From: Leisingera caerulea DSM 24564
GTDB lineage: Bacteria; Pseudomonadota; Alphaproteobacteria; Rhodobacterales; Rhodobacteraceae
Assembly: GCF_000473325.1 (NCBI RefSeq)
Contig: NZ_KI421513.1
Span: 10,717 to 74,716, forward strand
Direction: 5' to 3'
DNA: 64,000 nt
A program made the position numbers and the translations under genes. Positions 1 through 9,029 of this stretch are shown piece after piece (position 1 is the first letter of the stretch; the number at the start of each line of letters is the position of its first letter). The notes under the pieces were generated by a model, which searched no databases, was not told the DNA's origin, and was given only the letters and a program-made list of their open reading frames with translations.

Positions 1-367
1 CACGGGCCAGCTCAGCAATCATAACCGCCATCCGGCGCCCGCCATAGGTTTCCGGCAGGCAGGCAAGCGAAGCGGCCACCATATCAGCATCATGATGACG
101 CGGCGAACTGCCGCCGCCCTGAATGCGGCCCTTTACACCTAAGCGGGCCTGTTCGATCAAGATCCACTCCATCCCGAAACCGGGACGCGCACCGGTTTCC
201 CGCTCAATCTCGTCAAAGTCCAACCCGACCTTTTCGCGCTGAAATGCCCACTCGATCAGCTCCAGAGCGCTGACTTCCAGCTTGCCAGTGCGCGGCGCCC
301 GAACAGTCACGACAGCTGTCCGCTGATTTTGGGCAAATGCCTCTTGACGCGCGATTGCCACGTTCAT
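1..367 (-). CDS. phage protein of unknown function, partial
   Basis: The reading frame starts at ATG 367 (MNVAIARQEAFAQNQ...) after a GGAGGT ribosome site and runs off the left edge after 122 codons, so the C-terminus is missing. It shows no signal peptide or membrane segment. The segment ending HHDADMVAASLACLPETYG followed by a basic GGRRMAV stretch looks like an ordinary globular phage protein. The start overlaps the stop of a tiny upstream frame by ATGA, which suggests coupled translation. I do not recognise a family; position at the end of the replication/early arm is the only clue to role. Confidence 0.7.
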   Translation of the reverse strand, partial: MNVAIARQEAFAQNQRTAVVTVRAPRTGKLEVSALELIEWAFQREKVGLDFDEIERETGARPGFGMEWILIEQARLGVKGRIQGGGSSPRHHDADMVAASLACLPETYGGRRMAVMIAELAR

Positions 368-429
368 GCCCGCACCTCCGCCCGCTGCGCCCGCGCCTCT
401 GCGGCCACCACTGCTACATGCTCGCTCAC
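364..429 (-). CDS. possible 21-residue coupled small ORF
   Basis: A 22-codon frame begins with GTG overlapping the previous gene's stop (GTGA) and ends with TGA overlapping the next gene's start (ATGA). It would encode a highly charged Ala/Arg/Glu helix. The double four-base overlap fills the only gap in an otherwise contiguous operon, which is the main evidence. It may instead be a passive spacer that lets ribosomes reach the downstream GGAGGT site, which lies within it. Confidence 0.35.
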   Translation of the reverse strand: MSEHVAVVAAEARAQRAEVRA

Positions 430-1040
430 GCCTGCATCCCTTCCTTCAATCCAGCCCCTGCCCGGGCCGCTTTGCCTTCAATCACCCACGCTTCGCACTT
501 CTTCAGCGTGCGCTCATACCAGCGGACGAATTCGCCCTGGTCGTGGATATCCGGGAACCCGCGCGACCGGCGTTCCATGATCTTCTGATATTCGCTGTTG
601 AACTCGGCAGCCTGCCGCCGCACCCGGTCTTTCTCAGGCCCCTTTGCCGGTGGCCGCTTGTTGTCCCGCCAGAACAGGTATTCCGCCAGCAGCACACCGT
701 CCCGCATTGCCTCCGCACCGGCACGGGACCGGAACCACCCCAGCAGCTCCGGCAGCTCATCAAGCGGGCGGTACTCCAGCGCCTCCGCCCAGCCCATCAC
801 GGTTGCACGGCAAGGCCAAAAGCATTTCGCCGAGCCTTCGCCCTTGGTCTGCAGGGACTGCTGCAGGGCAATCAGCCCCTTGTCGCTCATGTAGGCGATG
901 GAGTCGGCCAGCCGGTCCAGCATCGCCCGTTGCCTGTCCTCCGGCGTGCCCTTCGGAAACCTGAAGCCCAATTCCTGCAGCGGCTGTATCACCAGCCTCC
1001 GCACCCGGGCGCGCTTGCTTTCGGTTTGGTCACTGCACAT
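426..1040 (-). CDS. hypothetical phage protein, 204 aa
   Basis: The frame starts MCSDQTESKRARVRRLVIQP and is rich in charged and aromatic residues with no membrane segment. A Cys-Phe-Trp-Pro-Cys motif lies near residue 75 and several Trp residues follow. It is the first gene after the 21-bp repeat region and is coupled to the small frame downstream. The N-terminal basic part and the position behind the replication genes would fit a DNA- or RNA-associated early protein, but I recognise no family and assign no function. Confidence 0.7.
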   Translation of the reverse strand: MCSDQTESKRARVRRLVIQPLQELGFRFPKGTPEDRQRAMLDRLADSIAYMSDKGLIALQQSLQTKGEGSAKCFWPCRATVMGWAEALEYRPLDELPELLGWFRSRAGAEAMRDGVLLAEYLFWRDNKRPPAKGPEKDRVRRQAAEFNSEYQKIMERRSRGFPDIHDQGEFVRWYERTLKKCEAWVIEGKAARAGAGLKEGMQA

Positions 1041-1192
1041 CTGCCTTCACCACTCCTTTTTTCTAAGCCTGTCCGACCTATCCACAGGCAGCCCGTTCCC
1101 GATGGCGCGACCCGTGAATATCTTTTCTTCTAATTTCGTTTCTTCTCTTTTCAGCGGTTACAGAAACGGCGCAAAAAAAGGGACAAACGGAA

Positions 1193-1276
1193 CAGAACAC
1201 GGGAAATTCCGTGTTTTTCCGGGAATGTTCTGTAATTTTCACGGAATATTCTGTGACTGTCACAGAATGCACAGAT
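1193..1276. repeat. four tandem 21-bp iteron-like repeats
   Basis: Four adjacent 21-bp units lie at 1193-1213, 1214-1234, 1235-1255 and 1256-1276. Their shared core on the + strand is roughly TTTTC-CGGAAT-TTCTGTG; units 2 and 3 agree at 16 of 21 positions and the outer units are weaker. The last junction also forms the palindrome ATTCTGTGAC-T-GTCACAGAAT. The 21-bp period is two helical turns, so a protein would bind the same face each time. Neighbours are a DnaA-domain gene and a DUF1376-like gene, which suggests a phage origin or an operator array. Confidence 0.7.
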
Positions 1277-1290
1277 TGCGCTAAGCCCGA

Positions 1291-1911
1291 TCACGGCGCG
1301 CACTCCATCTGGAATTCATCCAGGGCCGAACGTATGAATGGTTCGCGCCGCTGCGTTCGCGGATAACGCTCTTCCAGCCAATCGTTGAAGCGCTCAAGGA
1401 AGCCAGGCGCCCGCAGAAGCTGCCCTGCGCCGATCCGCCCCTCGATCATCTCGCGCAGATCCTTTAGCCGCTTGTTGTACTTACGCTCTTCCTGTTCAGC
1501 CTTGTTCTTCCGGCTCGACCCCAGCGCCTCGACAGCCACTTCCGTCACAACCGGATGCGCCCACCGGATATCCCCGTTGTCGCACCGCACCCGGTGCCAG
1601 TTGTGCAGCGGGGTAATCTTGCGTTCATTCAGCGCGTGCCACTTTTCCAGCGGCAACCGCAGCTCATAGGCCAATTGCTCATCATCGCAGGGCAGCGTGC
1701 CAATGGGCGTTTCATCCTGCGCAATGAAGAAGAGCAGCATTCCATACCAGCCAACATCAGGATCAGCCTTCCGGCGGAACTCGCTGGCCCGCCAGCGCTT
1801 GAGGTTCCATTGCAGGAAGTAGTGCGAGTCCAGCCGGTCACTTGCTGAAATCGGGTATTCCTCCAAATCCTCGGCATCGATCGGCTGCAGATGCCTTGCG
1901 TGTGCATTCAT
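1291..1911 (-). CDS. DUF1376/YdaU-like phage replication-associated protein
   Basis: The ATG at 1911 is chosen because AGGAAGGGCAGG lies just upstream; a TTG at 1941 would add ten residues. After a polar leader the protein has a segment (about residues 25-90) with SHYFLQWNLKRW...VGWYGMLLFFIAQDE..LPCDDEQLA...W, which resembles the DUF1376 winged-helix domain found in phage replication proteins. The rest is a basic, helical tail. It lies directly upstream of the 21-bp repeats and downstream of the DnaA-domain gene, so a role in phage replication initiation or primosome loading is plausible but inferred. Confidence 0.6.
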   Translation of the reverse strand: MNAHARHLQPIDAEDLEEYPISASDRLDSHYFLQWNLKRWRASEFRRKADPDVGWYGMLLFFIAQDETPIGTLPCDDEQLAYELRLPLEKWHALNERKITPLHNWHRVRCDNGDIRWAHPVVTEVAVEALGSSRKNKAEQEERKYNKRLKDLREMIEGRIGAGQLLRAPGFLERFNDWLEERYPRTQRREPFIRSALDEFQMECAP

Positions 1912-1970
1912 TGCCCTGCCCTTCCTCTTGTTTTGTTCCAACCCGCCCTGCAGCAGGTCGCCAGTTCCGG

Positions 1971-2399
1971 TCAGCCTCGGCCCGCGCGGACCGTCGAAAA
2001 CGGTCGCCCGTGCGCATGCTCATGCCGGATGAAATCTGCGCTGCCTGCGCGCTCCGCCAGTTGCCGCCGCAGCTCGTCGTAATCGGCCTTGATATCCGGC
2101 CGCTTCTGGCAGCGCTCCCGCACCTGCTTGAGGCCGAAACAAACTGTCGTGTGACACTGCAGGTGCAGGGCCTCAGCAATTTGCGGTGTACTCAGCGACG
2201 TGCGGCTCCTGATCATCGCCATTGCCATCTGCCGCGGCCAGGACACCCGGCGTTCACGGCTGGGGCCGGTTATCTCCCTCTTGCCGAGCCGGTAATAGAC
2301 GCGGACAACCTCGATAATTTCCGACACATGCAGCCGCCTCTTGGGCGACGGCACTTCTTGCCCCTGGGTCGTTTCGTCAAGCGCCTGAGGGTCAGCCAT
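1971..2399 (-). CDS. orphan DnaA domain IV (DNA-binding) protein
   Basis: Residues about 25-105 match the C-terminal DNA-binding domain of the initiator DnaA: the helix SEIIEVVRVYYRL, the basic PSRERRVSWPRQMAMAMIR stretch, TSLSTPQIAEAL and the signature HTTVCFGLKQVRE, the equivalent of the DnaA-box contact motif. The AAA+ ATPase part is absent; the protein is only 142 aa against about 450 for DnaA. Such domain-IV-only proteins occur in phages and may bind DnaA boxes to redirect or block host initiator. The start overlaps the end of the methyltransferase gene by eight bases, so the two are co-translated. Confidence 0.85.
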   Translation of the reverse strand: MADPQALDETTQGQEVPSPKRRLHVSEIIEVVRVYYRLGKREITGPSRERRVSWPRQMAMAMIRSRTSLSTPQIAEALHLQCHTTVCFGLKQVRERCQKRPDIKADYDELRRQLAERAGSADFIRHEHAHGRPFSTVRAGRG

Positions 2400-3063
2400 T
2401 GATCAGCACTCCCCGGTCAAACTCGGCAAGCCCAAGCCCGCCGTCTGGGTAATCCCCGTCCCGCTCCAACTGCCCGCGGCACGGTGGCACCCAATGCAGC
2501 TCCGTCACGCCAGAGCGGTGATCGGCCAGGAACACCACCCAGCAATAGGCCGTTGCAGTGCTGCCTTTCGGGGCCAGCCGCCCCTTGTGCATCACAACAC
2601 GTTCGGCGAACTGCAGGACAAAGGCTGGCGGGCATTTGGCAAACAGATCCTCATACCGCCGCTGGCCTTCCAGAAAGGCACTGCGCACCAGAAACGCGCA
2701 GCCCTCGCGGCTTGTCCGCACAGCCCGCATGATGAATTGCTCAGCAAGCTTGAACGGCGGGTTTGAAATCGTCCAATCAACCGCCGCCGGGTCGTCGCCC
2801 CAAAGGTAGTCCCTGACCGGGAACCCCGCGCCGTAGTCGTGAACGTCCGCCGCATCGACTTGGTCAAAGATATCAGCCAGGACGCGCACCATGTGCCCCC
2901 GGTTGGCTGCAGGCTCACGCCCCACGCCGCCAGCAGTGAACCCCTGCGACACTAAAAACTGCCACAGCGCCCGCGTGGCCCACGGCGGCGTCGGGAAATC
3001 GTCAAGGCTGCTGTGCGGCTCGCTCCGCTGCTGCATGACGGCACTGGACTGGTTTTGCCTCAT
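2392..3063 (-). CDS. phage DNA N6-adenine methyltransferase-like protein
   Basis: The protein begins with a DDFPTPPWATRALW segment, then EPAANRGHM (about residues 49-57, motif I for S-adenosylmethionine) and SNPPF (about residues 99-103, the catalytic motif IV of N6-adenine methylases). This order is that of small phage Dam-type enzymes. It would methylate adenine in phage or host DNA, protecting against restriction or timing replication. Its ATG overlaps the stop of the preceding gene (ATGA). Target sequence cannot be read from the protein. Confidence in the fold is good and in DNA rather than another substrate moderate. Confidence 0.75.
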   Translation of the reverse strand: MRQNQSSAVMQQRSEPHSSLDDFPTPPWATRALWQFLVSQGFTAGGVGREPAANRGHMVRVLADIFDQVDAADVHDYGAGFPVRDYLWGDDPAAVDWTISNPPFKLAEQFIMRAVRTSREGCAFLVRSAFLEGQRRYEDLFAKCPPAFVLQFAERVVMHKGRLAPKGSTATAYCWVVFLADHRSGVTELHWVPPCRGQLERDGDYPDGGLGLAEFDRGVLING

Positions 3064-3500
3064 CAGGAGCCCTCCCCATCCAGCAAATAGACCGGCTTGT
3101 GATCAGCCAGCGCGCAGCACGTTGCCCGCCAAACACAGGCAGAGGAATGCCAGCCCGGCACTGGCGGAATAATCACCAGGTCCGCATAGCGCAGAACGCT
3201 TTCCGGCTTGGCCTCTTCCAGCCCGCATTCAAACGCCAGATAAGCCGGAGAAATCGGCAGCACGCCAGAAGCGGCAAGCTGCCCCATCCATTCCAGCGCG
3301 ATATCGGCCGCCAGCACCGGCCCGCCATCATGGAGCGCATAGGGCGAGGCCAGACAGGCCAGCTTTCCCGCGGCATAAGCGCCCGCATCGGCCAGCATCA
3401 GCTTGTCCCGGAAGAGGCCAACAGGTCGCCAGAACCACCCGAGCCAGACCCAATCCGGGTGTTCCGGGAAATCCAGCGCCGTATCTGACAAATCACGCAT
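3063..3500 (-). CDS. DUF1937-like (nucleoside 2-deoxyribosyltransferase fold) protein
   Basis: The 145-aa protein has the CLASPYALHD motif (about residues 49-58), an aliphatic AADIALEWMGQL helix, then GVLPISPAYLAFEC and a C-terminal YADLVIIPPVPGWHSS..VWRATCCALADHKPVYLL block. This pattern is that of the DUF1937/DUF4406 proteins, related in fold to nucleoside 2-deoxyribosyltransferases, common in phages and possibly involved in nucleotide salvage or modification. The ATG at 3500 follows GAGGGGG. Only 15 bases separate it from the U-tract of a terminator hairpin, so expression probably needs transcription through that hairpin. Confidence 0.6.
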   Translation of the reverse strand: MRDLSDTALDFPEHPDWVWLGWFWRPVGLFRDKLMLADAGAYAAGKLACLASPYALHDGGPVLAADIALEWMGQLAASGVLPISPAYLAFECGLEEAKPESVLRYADLVIIPPVPGWHSSACVWRATCCALADHKPVYLLDGEGS

Positions 3501-3515
3501 GCACTACCCCCTCGC

Positions 3516-3552
3516 AAAAAGGGGCGCACAGCGAAACACTCGCTGCGCGCCC
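3516..3552 (-). terminator. Rho-independent terminator before the DUF1937-methyltransferase-DnaA-IV operon
   Basis: On the - strand a 12-bp stem (arms 3552-3541 and 3533-3522) with a 7-base loop is followed by TTTTTG. The single non-Watson-Crick pair is G.U on the - strand but A.C on the + strand, which supports - strand function. The U-tract ends about 15 bases before the next start codon, leaving no room for a new promoter. Confidence 0.75.
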
Positions 3553-3569
3553 TAGTCCAACAGGGAGGG

Positions 3570-3603
3570 AAAAGGGGGCTGCTTGCAGGTACGCCTGCCC
3601 CCG
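3570..3603 (-). terminator. second, upstream terminator-like hairpin
   Basis: On the - strand GGGGGC and GCCCCC arms (or the nested GCAGG-CCTGC stem) form a hairpin followed by CCTTTTCC. It lies 18 bases ahead of the stronger terminator, so the leader holds two terminators in tandem. It overlaps the open frame from GTG 3729, so its folding could depend on translation. Confidence 0.55.
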
Positions 3604-3654
3604 TTCGGCGTGTCCCCGAGGTCTGCCCTCCTCGACACCTGCTGCATTTTCGCA

Positions 3655-3687
3655 GACAACCGGGAACTGTTCAAAGCCCCGGCTGCC
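3655..3687 (-). promoter_or_regulatory. leader hairpin 1, paired with hairpin 2 at 4397-4429
   Basis: On the - strand GGCAGCCGGG (3687-3678) pairs with CCCGGTTGTC (3664-3655) over ten base pairs, two of them G.U; on the + strand those two would be A.C mismatches. The downstream - strand flank CTGCGAAAA resembles that of hairpin 2 (CTGCGAAAT). The 5' arm extended to 12 nt also matches, by complementarity, the 3' arm of hairpin 2. This looks like one member of a duplicated regulatory RNA element upstream of tandem terminators. Confidence 0.5.
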
Positions 3688-3712
3688 TACCGCCGCCTTC
3701 GGAAAGTAACCG

Positions 3713-4153
3713 ATGGACAGCGTCTTCACCCCATGACAACTTCTGACTGTTTCCACACAACCAGAAACCACAGAACGAAAGAATTCAGTCACGACAGAAG
3801 TAAAATTCGGCAACGGCTCCGTCAGCTTTGTCAGCGCGGTAGACGCCACGCCCGCCAGCTCCAAAACCGAAAGCAATGTGACCATCCACAACGCGGAACA
3901 GCCGGGAACTCCAGCGCACTTCGAAGTAAGCCACATGATCAGCGCCTCATCTGAGCAGAATGGACTGCTGACCCGGAACACCTTCCACTGGACAACGCTG
4001 CTTCCAGCCGATTCAAACGCTCTTCCATACATTCGAGTTGAAGACGAAGCTGCGCATCAGATTGCGGGTGCACTACGTGAACTTGCGGATGCGGTTGAAG
4101 CAGACGTTGAGCGCGCTGACGCAGAGCGCGCCCAACGCGCTGAAGAAGACTGA
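3713..4153 (+). pseudogene. phage coiled-coil protein gene interrupted by an in-frame TGA
   Basis: An ATG at 3713 with GGAAAG upstream reads MDSVFTP and then TGA at 3734-3736, after which the same frame stays open to 4153 (QLLTVSTQPETTERKNSVTTEV... then NVTIHNAEQPGTPAHFEV...). The downstream part looks strongly coding and ends in an acidic coiled coil (AGALRELADAVEADVERADA). No standard start codon lies between the TGA and GTG 3878. A CGA-to-TGA change would explain it. Alternatives are a shortened product from GTG 3878 or a start I cannot see. Function is unknown. Confidence 0.5.
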
Positions 4154-4347
4154 GGCTTCCAGGCATAAGTGTATCCTCTTGCTGACCGGGGCCTGCGGTC
4201 CGCAAGGCCCTATCAATCCCGGCTGTGAGAGCATCACGGCAGAAACCCTCATCGGGAATAGCGGCAGCCGGGGCGAGCCCACGCTCCCGGCCGCCCGCAC
4301 GCTGCACCCCGTTGTCATCAGATGCAGGAGGGTTCCCGAAATGGCCG

Positions 4348-4371
4348 TTTTCTGGACGGGCAGCGGTCATT
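4348..4371. repeat. 23-bp motif, copy 1 of 3
   Basis: On the + strand the copy reads TTTTCTGGACGGGCAGCGGT followed by CATT. Further copies lie at 4942-4964 and, more diverged, 5427-5449. On the - strand the second and third copies begin at the stop codon of a gene, and this one at the stop of a 35-codon open frame. Role unknown; candidates are a 3' stabilising element or a + strand regulatory site, since copies 1 and 2 lie 100-160 bp before + strand genes. Confidence 0.5.
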
Positions 4372-4396
4372 GCGCACCCCCTTCAAGAATTTCGCA

Positions 4397-4429
4397 GGCA
4401 ACCGGGGCTTGTCCGCCGCCCCGATTGCC
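4397..4429 (-). promoter_or_regulatory. leader hairpin 2, paralog of hairpin 1
   Basis: On the - strand GGCAATCGGGGC (4429-4418) pairs with GCCCCGGTTGCC (4408-4397) over 12 base pairs with one U.G pair, which on the + strand would be an A.C mismatch. Loop is 9 nt. It shares arm sequence and the CTGCGAAA flank with hairpin 1, with base changes that keep pairing. It also lies 44 bp upstream of the + strand start at 4473, so a role in that gene's leader is an alternative. Confidence 0.5.
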
Positions 4430-4472
4430 TGCACCTTCCGCGGTACTCCACAACGCAACGAAAGGGATTCTC

Positions 4473-4733
4473 ATGAGCGCCGAGTTGGACGAACTTGACT
4501 TGATCGAAATGCTGACAGACCGGCTGGCCAATGCGAATGACAGGATCAAAGCCTTAGAGGACACCGTTTTTGTTGTTCTGAGGATCTTCGACACTATGGA
4601 GGGCGACAAGATTTCTGGCGCCCTCAAGATCCTTGCCGACAGCCGCCGGAAGGCAGGCAATCCCGAAATCGCCGCGGTGCACGAAGAGAACATTGACGCC
4701 TTGGCCAAGTCCAAAAGCATCATGCGGCACTGA
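4473..4733 (+). CDS. small acidic coiled-coil phage protein, 86 aa
   Basis: The start is ATG 4473 after GAAAGGG. The protein opens MSAELDELDLIEMLTDRLA and continues with ANDRIKALEDTVFVVLRIF, a heptad-like coiled coil, then a charged helical tail. It is a separate gene inside a longer open frame that begins upstream without support. Orientation is opposite to the leftward operon. I recognise no family; a small oligomeric regulator or adaptor is possible. Its start overlaps, head to head, a - strand 35-codon frame that I did not accept. Confidence 0.7.
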   Translation: MSAELDELDLIEMLTDRLANANDRIKALEDTVFVVLRIFDTMEGDKISGALKILADSRRKAGNPEIAAVHEENIDALAKSKSIMRH

Positions 4734-4758
4734 CGAGCGCAGCCACAGAAAGCCTCAA

Positions 4759-4869
4759 TCAGGGCCTCAGAAACCGGTGCAGGGCATCCAAAAACCCAGG
4801 AATTTCCCACGCTTTCGGCTCCTGCCCGATGGCATTTAGAGCTTGTCGAATTTTCTCTCTTCGATCCAC
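4759..4869 (-). CDS. possible 36-residue phage protein
   Basis: A GTG start at 4869 follows a near-perfect TTGGAGGTGAAAACA ribosome site. The product (VDRREKIRQALNAIGQ, then a WEIPGFLDALHRFL segment) looks like two amphipathic helices with an aromatic core. It is too short to place in a family. The ribosome site is the best in this part of the region and is the main reason to list it. No gene lies opposite on the + strand. Confidence 0.5.
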   Translation of the reverse strand: MDRREKIRQALNAIGQEPKAWEIPGFLDALHRFLRP

Positions 4870-4941
4870 TGTTTTCACCTCCAATTTTGGTTGACAGAAC
4901 GTCGCAAGGCACCAGGCAAGGCGCCGTATTCTTCCAGCGGC

Positions 4942-4964
4942 TTTCTGGACGGGCGCCGGTCATT
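4942..4964. repeat. 23-bp motif, copy 2 of 3
   Basis: On the + strand this copy reads TTTCTGGACGGGCGCCGGTC followed by ATT. It differs from copy 1 at only a few positions. On the - strand it starts at the TGA of the 61-residue frame ending at 4960. Confidence 0.5.
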
Positions 4965-5145
4965 CGCCGCCACCTGCGGCAGGAGCAAATTCGTACCGAC
5001 GCGTGACTTCGTAACCGCTGTCCGCATCCACCCAACGGAATTCCACCGTTGCCAACCGGTCAGAAAAGGCAGCCAAAAGGTTGCGCTCAACCTCATTAAC
5101 CTGACCATCAGGAGAACTCTTACCAATGATATCAGTTTCAGACAT
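4960..5145 (-). CDS. small phage protein, 61 aa, overlapping a divergent gene
   Basis: The product (MSETDIIGKSSPDGQ..., then ATVEFRWVDADSGYEVTRRY, ending AGGGE) reads like a beta-rich small protein and is preceded by GAGGA. Its first 20 bases overlap the start of the + strand zinc-ribbon gene at 5126, so the two genes are divergent with overlapping 5' ends. Either could be a shadow, but both translations look coding. No family recognised. Confidence 0.5.
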   Translation of the reverse strand: MSETDIIGKSSPDGQVNEVERNLLAAFSDRLATVEFRWVDADSGYEVTRRYEFAPAAGGGE

Positions 5146-5413
5146 TCTGAAGATCCTCGACAAAGCACCGATTTGGACGACGCTGAAAGAAATGCCCCAG
5201 CGCATCGAGGCCCTGGAGGCCCGGGTCGCCGAACTGGAGGCAAAACCGGCAAAGGCGGAGCACCTCGAAACCTGCGAACTCTGCGGCAAGCCCGCCAAGG
5301 TGACGGACCTGAAAGATCACCCGCATTTCGGCACTTTCGGCGTGAAACTTCGCACGGTAACTTGCGAAGACGGGCACTCGATTGAGTACAAGTGGGACCC
5401 CAACAAGCAGTAA
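5126..5413 (+). CDS. coiled-coil and zinc-ribbon-like small phage protein, 95 aa
   Basis: Residues 1-45 form an amphipathic N-terminus and coiled coil (LPQ-like helix then RIEALEARVAELEAKP). A Cys-x2-Cys pair (CELCGK, about residues 51-54) is followed by HPHFGTFGVKLRTVTC and EDGHS, which together resemble a small zinc-binding module with a Cys/His second half. Similar short proteins are common in Rhodobacterales prophages, but I know of no assigned function. AGGAG lies upstream at a longish distance. The start overlaps the divergent 61-residue frame. Confidence 0.8.
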   Translation: MISVSDILKILDKAPIWTTLKEMPQRIEALEARVAELEAKPAKAEHLETCELCGKPAKVTDLKDHPHFGTFGVKLRTVTCEDGHSIEYKWDPNKQ

Positions 5414-5426
5414 GGGCGACCAGCCG

Positions 5427-5449
5427 TATTCAGGACGGGCGGCACTCAT
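5427..5449. repeat. 23-bp motif, copy 3 of 3 (diverged)
   Basis: On the + strand TATTCAGGACGGGCGGCACT then CATC aligns with copies 1 and 2. On the - strand it begins directly at the TGA that ends the 5449-5772 gene, the same placement as copy 2. Confidence 0.4.
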
Positions 5450-5772
5450 CACGCCGCCCTCGCCAGCGCATCACCGAAAAACGCAGCCGCGCCCGGATCG
5501 GTCAGCATGACCAGCAGAGCGGTGTGGCTGGCGGGCGCGGTCACCGCGCCCCACCAGTTCAGCGCGGTCTGAAAGCTCACATCGCAGAACAGCGCAACCT
5601 CGCGCGGGCTGCGGAAGCGGGCGCGGAAGTAGGCAGACCAAAGATCAGGTGCAGCAGCCTTCAGCGCATAGGGGTCAAACTGATTTGACCAAGACTTTTG
5701 ACCGGCCGCCGCGCCACGCTCACCGCATGGCACATCATTGTTCACAATCAGGGTCAGGCGGGGGCGGCTCAT
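5449..5772 (-). CDS. hypothetical phage protein with HTH-like segment, 107 aa
   Basis: The protein has a short basic N-terminus, then SPREVALFCDVSFQTALNWW (about residues 53-72), which has the spacing of a helix-turn-helix, and an Ala-rich C-terminus. GGGAGG precedes the ATG at 5772, which overlaps the stop of the Cro-like gene (ATGA). As second gene of the leftward operon it may be a transcription or replication regulator, but the family is not recognised. Confidence 0.7.
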   Translation of the reverse strand: MSRPRLTLIVNNDVPCGERGAAAGQKSWSNQFDPYALKAAAPDLWSAYFRARFRSPREVALFCDVSFQTALNWWGAVTAPASHTALLVMLTDPGAAAFFGDALARAA

Positions 5773-6047
5773 GCGGCTGCCTCCCCGCTTTCCGCTTGTT
5801 TCGGCGCCTCGAGGACTTCGCCAGCGCCAGCCCGAACTGCGGGCACCCTGTCAACAAGCAACTCAACCCAGCAATGAACCGGAACCGCACCGGCTGTGGC
5901 CTTGTCGATCCTTACCGCCAACTCCAGGCTAGGCTTCGCCGCACCACTCGACAACCGAGAGATGACACCCTGCGTCACGCCAACCGAATCAGCAAACTCG
6001 CTCTGCCGAATTCGGTTCTTCTTCAAATAAGTAGAAAGCTGCCTCAT
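5769..6047 (-). CDS. Cro-like / YdaS-type HTH transcriptional regulator
   Basis: The frame is open from 6149, but the sensible start is ATG 6047 (MRQLSTYLKKNRIRQSEFAD). Residues 1-55 form an HTH: RQSEFADSVGVTQGVISRLSSG with SLELAVRIDKAT after it, as in Cro/YdaS proteins. The remaining 35 residues are Ala/Glu-rich. It is the first leftward gene, divergent from the CI-like repressor, so it probably represses repressor transcription on induction. No Shine-Dalgarno site is present and the predicted -10 ends six bases before the ATG, so the mRNA is predicted to be leaderless. Confidence 0.8.
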   Translation of the reverse strand: MRQLSTYLKKNRIRQSEFADSVGVTQGVISRLSSGAAKPSLELAVRIDKATAGAVPVHCWVELLVDRVPAVRAGAGEVLEAPKQAESGEAAA

Positions 6048-6052
6048 GGCGC

Positions 6053-6095
6053 GAATATTCCCGACCGGAATATTCTTGTCAAGAATGCATATTCC
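6053..6095. promoter_or_regulatory. immunity-region operator cluster
   Basis: The palindrome ATTCTTGTCAAGAAT (6072-6086) sits between copies of GAATATTC (6053-6060 and 6068-6075) and a further ATATTCC (6089-6095). The half-site ATTCTTG recurs twice at 6669-6698 upstream of the rightward gene. These are the likely binding sites of the two HTH proteins. Confidence 0.65.
6054..6082 (-). promoter_or_regulatory. leftward (cro-side) promoter, leaderless
   Basis: On the - strand TTGACA (6082-6077), a 17-base spacer and AATATT (6059-6054) lie six bases before ATG 6047, so transcription should start at or next to the A of the start codon. The -35 box is embedded in the operator palindrome, which explains repression by a bound dimer. 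Confidence 0.65.
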
Positions 6096-6105
6096 CCAGC
6101 GTGTT

Positions 6106-6134
6106 TTGCCACGATCTACGGCCTGTGGGATAGT
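6106..6134 (+). promoter_or_regulatory. repressor (CI-side) promoter, leaderless
   Basis: TTGCCA (6106-6111), a 17-base spacer and GATAGT (6129-6134) are followed by GCGCC and ATG 6140. The predicted start of transcription is therefore at the start codon, as for lambda cI from PRM. Both divergent genes would share this property. Confidence 0.5.
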
Positions 6135-6139
6135 GCGCC

Positions 6140-6445
6140 ATGAGTGCAATCAAGAGACTTCGCAAGCTCAAAGGGTGGAACCAGAGCACGCTGGCTGAAG
6201 CTGCGGGCTTGGAGCAATCAACGATTTCGAAGATCGAACGCGGCTGGGACGGAGCAACCCTGCGCAGCCTGTCTCTAATCGCCCAAGCCCTTGATGTTCC
6301 TATGTACCAGCTATTCCTTGAGGATCATCAACTCGCAGAACTTAAGCTTCTGGAGGTTTTTCGAACCCTCCCGGCTGAGCGCCAACAGGGTTGGCTGGAT
6401 ATGGCGAAATCGGTACTAGACCACCCTCAAACAACTTCGCAATAA
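6140..6445 (+). CDS. XRE-family phage repressor (CI-like)
   Basis: Residues 4-58 are a classical XRE helix-turn-helix: IKRLRKLKGWNQSTLAEAAG, LEQSTISKIERG, then ATLRSLSLIAQALDVPMYQLF. The C-terminal 40 residues form a short helical tail (LLEVFRTLPAERQQGWLDMA), too small for a LexA-type peptidase domain, so induction is not by self-cleavage of the lambda CI kind. It is divergent from the Cro-like gene and probably maintains lysogeny through ATTCTTG operators on both sides of itself. No Shine-Dalgarno site is visible. Confidence 0.85.
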   Translation: MSAIKRLRKLKGWNQSTLAEAAGLEQSTISKIERGWDGATLRSLSLIAQALDVPMYQLFLEDHQLAELKLLEVFRTLPAERQQGWLDMAKSVLDHPQTTSQ

Positions 6446-6506
6446 GATCATCGACCTGGCCGGGCGTCATTGCTGAAATCAGCTTTTGGAATTCTTTTTC
6501 CATCAT
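6342..6506 (-). CDS. possible small protein convergent with the repressor gene
   Basis: From ATG 6506 (AAGGT upstream) a 54-residue frame reads MMEKEFQKLISAMTPGQVDD..., then a Pro-rich tail. The N-terminal part looks coding, but the last 100 bases lie antisense to the end of the repressor gene, which is certainly coding. It could be a real overlapping gene or a shadow with a chance start. Confidence 0.35.
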   Translation of the reverse strand: MMEKEFQKLISAMTPGQVDDLIAKLFEGGLVPISPYPANPVGAQPGGFEKPPEA

Positions 6507-6668
6507 AGATTTACCTTGCGTAATCCCCCACCCGCATAGCGGAAACCCGCGGATGTTCATCGCAGAACATCAGTCACTTAGTGGTTACCCACATGACCTC
6601 CACCAGAGGCCATAGGTCGACTCGCGACAACTCGCCACGCATCAGGAATAGTCTCGTCAGGAATTTTT

Positions 6669-6701
6669 ATTCTTGACACACATATTCTTGACGGGAATAA
6701 G
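6669..6701 (+). promoter_or_regulatory. rightward promoter with repressor half-sites
   Basis: TTGACA (6673-6678), a 17-base spacer and AATAAG (6696-6701) precede the GGAGG site and ATG 6730. ATTCTTGAC occurs twice, at 6669-6677 and 6684-6692, the second running into ATTCTTGACGGGAAT across the -10. The same half-site builds the immunity operator, so this promoter should be repressed in the lysogen. Confidence 0.65.
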
Positions 6702-6729
6702 TTCACCCTATCAACCGATGGAGGATTGA

Positions 6730-6999
6730 ATGCAAGACATGACCAACACCGCCCGGCAAATCGTCGGCTCACCGGAACACTACCTGGACGATACCGGCCT
6801 GTTCACCCAGGCATGGGCCGCCATGAAGGCCGCCCGCGGCCAGGGCTTTGACCCGGCGCGCCTGCGCGCGGCCCATCTGATCGACCGGCCGGAACCGGCG
6901 CCGGAGCCGACAGACCAGACCCTTGCGCGCGTCGGCGCCAAGGTACGCGCGCTCATCGCGGAGAAAAACATCCCGGTGCCGCGCCGCAATGCAGCCTGA
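6730..6999 (+). CDS. hypothetical phage early protein, 89 aa
   Basis: ATG 6730 follows GGAGG at ideal distance and the rightward promoter. The protein (MQDMTNTARQIVGSPEHYLD...) is mostly helical, with a Pro/Glu linker and a C-terminal ARVGAKVRALIAEKNIPVPR helix. No family recognised. A 33-codon frame (6989-7090) starts inside its last codons by overlap and ends just before the terminator; it may be a coupled peptide but has no other support. Being under repressor control, the gene is likely expressed on induction. Confidence 0.7.
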   Translation: MQDMTNTARQIVGSPEHYLDDTGLFTQAWAAMKAARGQGFDPARLRAAHLIDRPEPAPEPTDQTLARVGAKVRALIAEKNIPVPRRNAA

Positions 7000-7093
7000 C
7001 GCACAGTCCGTTGCTGCCGCCCCCGTAACCGCATCTGAAACCGGAAACACCGGCCGCGCACGCCCAAGGGCACCACCCCACCCAAAATAGCCG

Positions 7094-7130
7094 AAAGCGG
7101 CGCGTGACGGAGGATTGACGCGCCGCTTTT
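7094..7130. terminator. strong bidirectional terminator
   Basis: AAAGCGGCGCGT (7094-7105) and ACGCGCCGCTTT (7118-7129) form a perfect 12-bp stem with T-runs on both strands. It separates the rightward 6730 gene from the leftward 7234-7635 gene and can serve both. Confidence 0.85.
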
Positions 7131-7233
7131 CATTGAGGTTTCGCGCCCGTCTTGCGGCGCGGATCAGCGCGGGCAGCGCAATCCTCCAAACTGACCGCTG
7201 TCCGCGCACCACCAAAAAGGATGCATCATGCAA

Positions 7234-7635
7234 TCAGGAACGGGACTTCTGATGAATCGTCGGTTGGTCAAGAGCCGCCAGACAGTCGCCAACACAGTAA
7301 CAATCCTTACCGTGGCCGGAACAAAGCTTGGAAATGGCCTCGCCAATATCGGCTCGTTTGTCTTCCGGAACGCGCGCACGCGCGGCGGCAAGGTTTATGG
7401 CAGCCTCCTGCAAAGCAACGACAGCCTCACAGATCGCAGAGCTGTCGATACCCGATTGCTGCCGAACACCCTCGAAACGGGCGGCCATCCTGGCCGGACC
7501 ACAATCGCTGCATCGCTCCAGCGTTTCCTTCGGCGCCATCCCGGTTATCAGATCCACTTTCTGTGCGGCTATTTCAAACGCGCGCTGAGCCCTGGCGTAG
7601 TTAATAACTTCAGTAAGTTCCGGATCTTTTTTCAT
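7234..7635 (-). CDS. hypothetical phage protein with Cys pairs, 133 aa
   Basis: The protein starts MKKDPELTEVINYARAQRAF and is largely helical, with RCSDCG near residue 42 and CSGHGKDCYC near residue 107, possibly a metal-binding pair of sites. Helices between them are Ala-rich (EAVVALQEAAINLAAARARV). A GGGTAGGG site precedes the ATG. It is the only leftward gene in the right arm and is bounded by terminators, so it may be expressed independently, for example in the lysogen. Family unknown. Confidence 0.7.
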   Translation of the reverse strand: MKKDPELTEVINYARAQRAFEIAAQKVDLITGMAPKETLERCSDCGPARMAARFEGVRQQSGIDSSAICEAVVALQEAAINLAAARARVPEDKRADIGEAISKLCSGHGKDCYCVGDCLAALDQPTIHQKSRS

Positions 7636-7796
7636 CTAAACCCTACCCGCCGCAATCAATCAGCCGGCTTTTGCAAGTCTAACCTTCGCTCTTACATCCG
7701 CAAATACCCATCATCGCTATTACGACCGGACACCCGCAAAGCTCATTATACTTTAACGCGCACCGCTGCGAATAGTTCCTGCGACGGTGTGCCGCT

Positions 7797-8168
7797 ATGA
7801 AGGCCGGTTCTCAGAGGCTTTACGCAGCCGCCCGCAGCATGCGCGCCTGCGACCGGTTCGGCCAGGCGATGCTGCTGCAGGAACTGGGGGGCACGATCAC
7901 CCCGGGCAGCACGGACCCCGGCGACCGCTTCGACTTTGACGCTGTGCGCTGGCACGTGAACCTGCTGGGCATCTCCGCCTCAGGTGACGATATGCCCGGC
8001 GCGCTGGACGCCTGGATGCGCTCGGCGCAGGTGTTTCACAACATCGACGGCACCCGCCGCGCCACCGATGGCCGCCCGGATTGCCCCTATGGCGGCCAGG
8101 GCACGCCCGAAGACGCCATCCGCGCAGAACTTCTGCATCAAGCCACAAGAGTTGCCGAGGCCACTTGA
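7797..8168 (+). CDS. hypothetical phage protein, 123 aa
   Basis: The protein starts MKAGSQRLYAAARSMRACDR and has a mixed alpha/beta character with conserved-looking FDFDAVRWHVNLLG and AWMRSAQVFHNIDG segments. No signal peptide or membrane helix. It opens the rightward operon after a TATACT-containing intergenic stretch near 7745 that could be its promoter. A strong terminator follows at 8189. Family unknown. Confidence 0.65.
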   Translation: MKAGSQRLYAAARSMRACDRFGQAMLLQELGGTITPGSTDPGDRFDFDAVRWHVNLLGISASGDDMPGALDAWMRSAQVFHNIDGTRRATDGRPDCPYGGQGTPEDAIRAELLHQATRVAEAT

Positions 8169-8188
8169 AACCTGCGCCTTCGCAAACT

Positions 8189-8225
8189 GGCCGGGGGCAC
8201 GTCCCGAACCGCCCCCGGCCCTTTT
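8189..8225 (+). terminator. Rho-independent terminator inside the rightward gene cluster
   Basis: GGCCGGGGGC (8189-8198) and GCCCCCGGCC (8211-8220) pair perfectly and are followed by CTTTT. Genes from 8317 on therefore need read-through, antitermination or their own promoter. Confidence 0.8.
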
Positions 8226-8316
8226 CCAGAAACCAAACCCCGCCAGATCCGCCGGGCGCGGCAAAGTCCACCACTCACGAAGCCGCGCCGCGCCCGCCCT
8301 GCAGAAAGGCAAGCCA

Positions 8317-8592
8317 ATGCCCACGGAACAGAAAAAGCGCTTTGAGGATCTGCCGCCATCGACGCAGGCAGGCATCCTCTGCAATGACCCGCGGTTTCAG
8401 ACCTTCGCAGCCCAACGCTGCGGCTACCCGGACAAGCAGCTCACCCAAGGCGGCGCGGCTGAATACGTCCGCCAGGTCTGCCAGGTCAGCAGCCGCTGCG
8501 CGCTGCTGCACGATCAAGCCGCCGCCGACCGCTTCCAGGCCCTGCGCACCGAATTCGACGCATGGACCGGCAAACTCGCAACCCCGCGTTAA
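8317..8592 (+). CDS. hypothetical phage protein, 91 aa
   Basis: ATG 8317 follows AAAGG; the longer open frame upstream is not supported. The product (MPTEQKKRFEDLPPSTQAGI...) contains QTFAAQRCGYP and YVRQVCQVSSRCALL, and a C-terminal helix ending FDAWTGKL. Three Cys residues lie in the middle. It resembles small proteins that precede DUF2303 genes in Rhodobacterales prophages, but no function is known to me. Confidence 0.7.
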   Translation: MPTEQKKRFEDLPPSTQAGILCNDPRFQTFAAQRCGYPDKQLTQGGAAEYVRQVCQVSSRCALLHDQAAADRFQALRTEFDAWTGKLATPR

Positions 8593-8609
8593 GAAAGGAA
8601 CCTCGCGTG

Positions 8610-9029
8610 ATGACCCTTGCCAAGCCCCCCGCCATCCAAAACGCAGAACCCCATGACCCGTACAAAATGCGTAGCCTCGAACAGATCCTGCGCCTGTTCG
8701 ATGGCGGCGACTTCCTGCAGCAGCTCATGAAGGATCACCGGCAGTTGCAGCATGACCTGCTGGACCACAAAGCAGAACACGGCACCAAGGGTTGCCAGGG
8801 CAGCATGACGATCACCGTCAGCTACGCACTGGGCAAATCCGGCGACGTGGATATGGGCGCAACGGCCTTGTTCAAAGGCCCGAAAAAGCCCGCCTCCAGC
8901 GCCGCAGCCTTCCTGAACGAACAGGGCGAGCTGACGCTTTACAGCCCCATGATGAAGCAGATGCACGAGCCCGTGCGCGACGTCACCGACTACGACCCCG
9001 AAACCGGCGAAATCCGCGATCCGGATTAA
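8610..9029 (+). CDS. hypothetical phage protein upstream of DUF2303, 139 aa
   Basis: The start is ATG 8610 after AAAGGAACC (GTG 8607 is in frame). The N-terminal half is helical and charged (YKMRSLEQILRLFDGGDFLQ); the second half contains a beta-like GSMTITVSYALGKSGDVDMG segment and ends DYDPETGEIRDPD, a common tail in phage DNA-metabolism accessory proteins. It sits immediately before the DUF2303 gene and is probably co-expressed with it. Role unknown. Confidence 0.7.
   Translation: MTLAKPPAIQNAEPHDPYKMRSLEQILRLFDGGDFLQQLMKDHRQLQHDLLDHKAEHGTKGCQGSMTITVSYALGKSGDVDMGATALFKGPKKPASSAAAFLNEQGELTLYSPMMKQMHEPVRDVTDYDPETGEIRDPD

Follow-up and report, generated by a model that had tools for sequence, protein, structure and literature searches.

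The DUF1937-like gene in the early region of a prophage of Leisingera caerulea DSM 24564 is preceded by a conserved element which has the letters of its linker and terminator in common with SorX (RF02784) and SorY (RF02651), two small RNAs of Rhodobacter. In the window, i.e. the whole stretch of 64,000 nucleotides that was analysed, the element occupies positions 3498..3610 of the minus strand. Our favoured interpretation, which we consider somewhat probable, is that of a phage-borne SorX/SorY-type RNA module which terminates the majority of early transcripts and probably gives rise to an RNA acting in trans, the genes behind it depending on read-through.

The span of the element is that of its match with covariance model R1, which in the own genome reached 123 bits (G000:C7:14214-14326), a score obtained by construction as the window sequence is among the eight members of the model. 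Read 5' to 3' on the minus strand, it consists of a 5' stem (hairpin 1, 3574..3602, defined by its fold and by covariation on 17 copies), a linker of 17 bases between the two hairpins (3553-3569), the stem of an intrinsic terminator (hairpin 2, 3522..3552, defined by fold, terminator scan and covariation), the U-tract TTTTT (3516..3520), preceded by C, the Shine-Dalgarno-like GAGGGGG of the DUF1937-like gene (3507..3513) and its start codon. The core of the linker, CTCCCTGTTGGAC (3555..3567), is proposed as a pairing seed with an anti-Shine-Dalgarno part. A minus-strand terminator that ends 15 bases ahead of ATG 3500, too close for a promoter to fit in between, had been described in the initial annotation and is borne out by the sequence. 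As minus-strand RNA, hairpin 2 forms an uninterrupted stem of 13 pairs with −27.7 kcal/mol, a stability reached by none of 200 shuffles, whereas the stem of the plus-strand RNA is interrupted (−23.4 kcal/mol); these energies, computed for both strands as had been suggested, fit the earlier remark that the non-canonical pair is G.U on the minus and A.C on the plus strand. The number of terminator-like sites in 1-9000 is ordinary (9 versus 10.6 ± 2.9 in shuffles), and the 14-pair terminator at 3522-3552 is the best of these nine. Hairpin 1 alone (−16.1 kcal/mol) is no better than chance, as 26 of 200 shuffles were as good, and the TTTT behind it (3570-3573) is found in the window only, the eight other DUF1937-type copies being devoid of such a T run. 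Of the two tandem terminators described earlier, hairpin 2 was therefore kept as a terminator, and for hairpin 1 the designation 5' stem of an RNA is more apt. The most conserved feature is the linker between the hairpins, which had been overlooked in the first reading.

Behind the element, the DUF1937-like gene (3063..3500; Pfam PF09152, 18 bits, under the cut-off of 23) is followed by a DNA methyltransferase gene (2392..3063; phrog_799, E 8.7e-48) and a gene with a DnaA C-terminal domain (1971..2399; PF08299, E 6.3e-16), all on the minus strand. The presumed first gene of the early transcript is a Cro/repressor-like HTH gene on the same strand (5769..6047), for which we chose the inner ATG (6047) as start; the frame 5769-6149 matches HTH_3 (E 2.8e-6) and the repressor family phrog_35 (E 2.7e-7). 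A second early gene (5449..5772, minus strand) had no family match in Pfam or PHROGs, and its homologue immediately precedes the element in L012 and DUF1937 in L004. A scan of the minus strand from 3500 to 6054 gave no site resembling the consensus used, which may not suit this bacterial group, and the nearest upstream promoter-like site on this strand is TTGACA-17-AATATT at 6082-6054, just ahead of the inner ATG, a candidate early promoter by consensus match only (10 of 12 positions). Since an HTH regulator lies upstream, the methyltransferase and DnaA-domain genes lie behind, and portal and head-decoration genes follow farther along the same strand beyond the window, the region is a prophage early region with the element placed after the first early genes. 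In this it resembles lambda tR1, on which N acts and which is a terminator after the first early gene, and HK022 put likewise consists of two stem-loops. The analogy with lambda N/Q, HK022 put and P4 immunity drawn in the initial annotation found no further support, as neither an N, Q or put partner nor one of P4 type was seen among the Pfam and PHROGs families scanned, and the linker of the element is of a host small RNA type.

The presumed early transcript contains other small features. Three 39-nt direct repeats (4344-4382, 4937-4975 and 5423-5461; 72-77% alike) each open a minus-strand frame (MTxARPE..) immediately after another frame has ended, a pattern suggestive of repeated insertion of small cassettes into the space that separates the element from the early regulator genes; similar starts occur upstream of the element in L002 and L010. 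Three small plus-strand frames are located at 3878-4153, 4474-4733 and 5126-5413, the last with two CxxC-like pairs recognised by eye; two of the three were compared with PHROGs and gave no convincing match.

No curated Rfam match was found within the window. A permissive search gave SorX with 27.3 bits (E 0.0009) and SorY with 25.9 bits (E 0.02), both under the respective gathering scores of 46.6 and 111 bits. Among the eight relatives, six matched one or both families at E up to 1 (best L010, 34.5 bits; none in L012 and L006 at this limit), and six of seven other phage-type copies did so at E up to 0.1 (L036 gave no match at this limit), with 41.7 bits for L037 (SorX) and 41.6 bits for L093 (SorY) as the best scores, all matches of phage-type copies remaining under the curated thresholds. 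SorX is an expressed small RNA that is processed by RNase E and associated with Hfq, and both SorX and SorY have been described as host stress RNAs. Element, SorX and SorY are alike in having a 5' hairpin, followed by the linker ACCUCCCUGUUGGAC directly before an intrinsic terminator; the linker of the window reads CCCUCCCUGUUGGAC and is one letter off at the 5' end. They differ in that the stems of the element are unlike those of SorX and SorY, and that it stands in a phage gene setting with a gene start 15 bases behind the U-tract. The conserved terminator arrangement of the first reading stands; the SorX/SorY core of linker plus terminator had been missed.

Exact CTCCCTGTTGGAC is present four times in the own genome, namely in the element, in SorX (95.3 bits, same linker), in a second host RNA (L024; SorX 57.1 and SorY 55.7 bits, the latter also under the SorY threshold of 111) and at the end of an aminotransferase gene. 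Under one fixed rule, a terminator was detected behind all four of these sites and behind none of eight one-mismatch copies; when one mismatch was allowed in the 13-mer, no enrichment was seen (12 versus 9 backwards). The element, SorX and the second host RNA are predicted to be built alike, with a 5' hairpin, an open linker and a terminator, and in the minimum-energy fold of L010 part of the linker is paired with the 5' stem region. The aminotransferase gene, of class III, is a host gene that ends in the same linker and terminator (L022, 1501-1513) and possibly represents an unrecognised 3'-end small RNA. No OmpR gene was found beside SorX within 1.5 kb on either side of L023.

A search for DUF1937-like proteins yielded 14 loci (L001-L014), located in the own genome and, with the own genome always counted in, in 8 of 149 genomes of the family and 6 of 21 of the genus. 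When all 14 loci were scanned with the element model on both strands, the same element of ∼110 nt was found at the DUF1937-type gene start in nine (L001, L002, L003, L006 and L010-L014). The placement of these genes behind a conserved terminator, which the initial annotation had proposed to look for in related prophages, thus recurs. Four loci (L004, L005, L007 and L009) gave no model match, and L008, itself a partial protein match, gave a weak one of 21.9 bits ∼1.3 kb from the gene; in L004, the homologue of gene 5449-5772 runs almost directly into DUF1937. As five of the 14 loci are without the element at the gene, the DUF1937 operon can do without it. The own genome carries a second gene with its element copy on another contig (L002, 65% protein identity), and this contig (G000 C8, with L002, L020 and L237) contains a second prophage-type region with its own element before the DUF1937-like gene. 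A search for relatives by peptide patterns in genome contigs and viral contigs confirmed none, and two weak matches to phage phi6 (E 4), obtained in INPHARED with the 118-base element, were judged to be chance.

The exact 15-mer ACCTCCCTGTTGGAC was searched in 385 genomes of the class. It was present in all five genomes of the family of the window, at nine sites that all precede a terminator, and in 2 of the 380 other genomes, at two sites of which neither does. A covariance model of the eight copies gave matches in 45 of 394 family genomes at E 0.001; sorting by eye on 29 of 30 loci (L050 was blank) showed that the strongest matches are phage-type elements, that many weaker ones resemble host SorX/SorY-type RNAs, and that at least two (L041 and L051) are without the linker. 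In IMG/VR, the 15-mer occurred in 119 stretches (46 non-redundant) and its reversed form in 34 (23). A terminator was detected behind 31 of 44 non-redundant copies and 96 of 116 in all, leaving 13 of the 44 without one. On the antisense side one was detected in 3 of 46 cases, behind the reversed 15-mer in 4 of 22 non-redundant cases (5 of 33 in all), and at random positions of the same contigs in 31 of 460; these counts omit 3 of the 119 viral matches (2 of the 46) and 1 of the 34 controls, which are cut by the locus end.

Gene settings were compiled for the 31 non-redundant viral copies with terminator and 11 genome loci, L036 giving no row. The genes found include a CII-like regulator followed by another gene (L038, PHROGs), a CII-like regulator followed by RusA (L096, the regulator by eye), DNA methyltransferases (L036 by PHROGs, L040 and L115 by eye) and small HTH-like genes (L070 and L176, by eye); other copies stand behind a major-head-like gene (L065, a weak partial PHROGs match; L104 and L121, by eye) or a terminase-like gene (L079 and L099, by eye). 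Promoter-like sites of their own precede 4 of 31 viral copies versus 22 of 620 random places, too few for own promoters to be a general rule. About 40 viral contigs of 45-49% G+C (L065, L072, L068, L089 and alike) carry linker and terminator behind a major-head-like gene, and in L065 a promoter-like site lies just upstream, for which reason this copy may be a free-standing small RNA gene. On contig C3 of G230 (381913-382080; L233 and L235), two SorX-like copies of linker plus terminator are arranged in tandem ∼150 bases apart.

The complement of the linker contains CAACAGGGAG, by its sequence a good ribosome-binding site. The pattern CAACAGGGAG-N3-14-ATG was found nine times in the own genome versus none backwards, and 250 times versus 9 in 61 family genomes, where ∼25 of the ∼150 matches listed are, by eye, the opposite strand of SorX/SorY-like sites; in the window there is no second CAACAGGGAG beyond the element's own complement. 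At seven of the nine sites a long frame starts, and five of these frames encode transporter proteins by Pfam (two OpuAC-type, one SBP_bac_8-type and one SBP_bac_5-type binding protein, and one oligopeptide-type ABC ATPase), the remaining two being a luciferase-like monooxygenase and a CoA-transferase. These are candidate targets. In PMC8307010 and PMC6238624, SorX is reported to be cut from a 3' end by RNase E and to act on the mRNA of a spermidine transporter subunit, and SorY to act on the malate transporter mRNA takP.

In order to weigh RNA structure against coding, 17 chosen copies were aligned. Both stems covary: 95.6% of cells pair and 17 of 22 pairs have two-sided changes, values reached by none of 500 shuffles and far higher than in slid controls, in an alignment that was fitted to the model and hence leans towards it, and that omits copies such as L153, L042, L083, L048 and L057 although they were matched (the search took 55 loci). 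In the eight close copies alone the signal is weak, with three such pairs (reached by 192 of 500 shuffles) and a covariation score reached by 2 of 500. The initial annotation had further pointed to a frame reading through both hairpins to 3493, overlapping the next start, and to its translation as a factor that could decide folding. The frame is indeed there (3493..4032, minus strand; its stop TGA overlaps the start at 3500), and 17 of 18 copies have a frame that spans the element and stops within −6 to +5 of the next start, versus 11.7 in shuffles; the 18 are those of 20 chosen copies with an assigned start (L037 and L093 left out), and the nominal tail of 0.001 is inflated by the kinship of the copies. 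In 12 less related copies the figure is 11 versus 8.3 expected, with a tail of 0.035 that kinship likewise overstates, and the stop of the DUF1937 group is a consequence of the conservation of the first codons. The peptide sequence itself is not conserved. Of the phases in which the linker can be read, none is open throughout the 20 copies, that of the window and another one each being open in 14, and L083 having none at all (for L001 the test stops in the loop, though the frame is open to 3493), and in five gap-free copies whose frame ends over the next start, substitutions number 79/104/85 at codon positions 1/2/3. Without a third-position bias or a common open phase, a conserved leader peptide was rejected.

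A translated frame whose peptide does not matter is possible, the through-frame being open more often than expected. Ribosomes on it would open the terminator and the Shine-Dalgarno sequence, so that early translation sets read-through and couples translation. We regard such an attenuator as unlikely, although the excess of through-frames is more in keeping with translational control than with a small RNA alone, which weakens our favoured interpretation, and although such a frame starts right behind the upstream gene in L012 and L006. UpsM reportedly has an sORF over its terminator, in R. sphaeroides only (PMC5089854). Against the attenuator stand, besides the substitution pattern, the want of a common phase and the kinship of the copies, that the same linker is kept in SorX and SorY, which are described as non-coding. 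An improbable explanation, too, is a switch acting in cis only, by which a ligand, a protein or alternative pairing would open the terminator and the terminated RNA would be without function. The terminator touches the Shine-Dalgarno sequence of the next gene in several unrelated contexts, and pairing of the latter with the linker is predicted in part of the copies, but this result is mixed (the row for L001 is invalid, a T run in the loop having been taken as U-tract); moreover, the most conserved letters are those of host small RNAs behind which no gene is placed in this way, and other phages have the module behind capsid- or terminase-like genes.

Those same capsid- or terminase-like genes, together with the host aminotransferase gene, end in linker plus terminator and would agree with a plain terminator free of regulation, whose linker aids termination or RNA stability in this bacterial family, e.g. 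by Hfq binding. For a general feature of terminators, four exact copies are a low number in a genome of 5.3 Mb, and the enrichment of the linker complement at start codons would not be accounted for, which makes this explanation quite improbable. Very unlikely is a promoter inside the element that serves the DUF1937-like gene, since no promoter-like site is present on the minus strand in 3500-3610, even if promoters of this group may deviate from the consensus scanned.

According to the interpretation that we favour, an RNA module of SorX/SorY type, transcription from a promoter near 6050 would reach the element and mostly stop at the U-tract. The 3' end, which RNase E might trim as it does in SorX, would be retained as a small RNA whose pairing partners are ribosome-binding sites like CCAACAGGGAG, many of which precede transporter genes. 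A minority of polymerases would read through and express the genes behind the element, whose Shine-Dalgarno sequence may also pair with the linker in cis.

Compared by description only, two known RNAs share this anatomy of a terminator with genes directly behind it, a likeness of anatomy alone for which a common transcript is presumed. DicF of the E. coli Qin prophage is a small RNA of a prophage operon with genes behind it; PMC5069750 and PMC10448788 describe it as cut from the operon transcript, with one 3' end at an intrinsic terminator. It differs from the element in its host and in that its function is known, whereas that of the element is proposed only. UpsM, from the 5' leader of the dcw operon of Rhodobacteraceae, is made by a leader terminator, and the operon behind it lives on ∼1% read-through (PMC5089854); unlike the element, it belongs to a host operon. 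A literature text search for CCUCCCUGUU found no paper, and the matches listed for longer linker strings, in a search outside which most subscription papers lie, concern eukaryotic viruses or cells by title, none being phage or bacterial. Word searches found neither sRNA, small RNA nor DUF1937 in a survey of Rhodobacteraceae prophages (PMC8224337), and neither Rhodobacter nor Roseobacter in a review of phage small RNAs (PMC12197685).

More tentatively, and as a possibility rather than a probability, temperate and lytic phages of one bacterial family may repeatedly have taken up the seed-plus-terminator core of host SorX/SorY and set it at their own transcript ends. In temperate phages, it would have a dual role as a trans-acting RNA that lowers host nutrient transport and as a gate on replication genes. 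Read-through and the translation of the first gene behind it would then be subject to feedback, either from host targets that engage the seed or from ribosomes on the through-frame. The element may thus have host genes under its control and at the same time restrain those of the phage. If true, SorX and SorY, known as host stress RNAs, would be extended to a phage-borne class present in many viral contigs, and phages might copy a host small RNA seed to steer host uptake while using the terminator of the same RNA to time their early genes.
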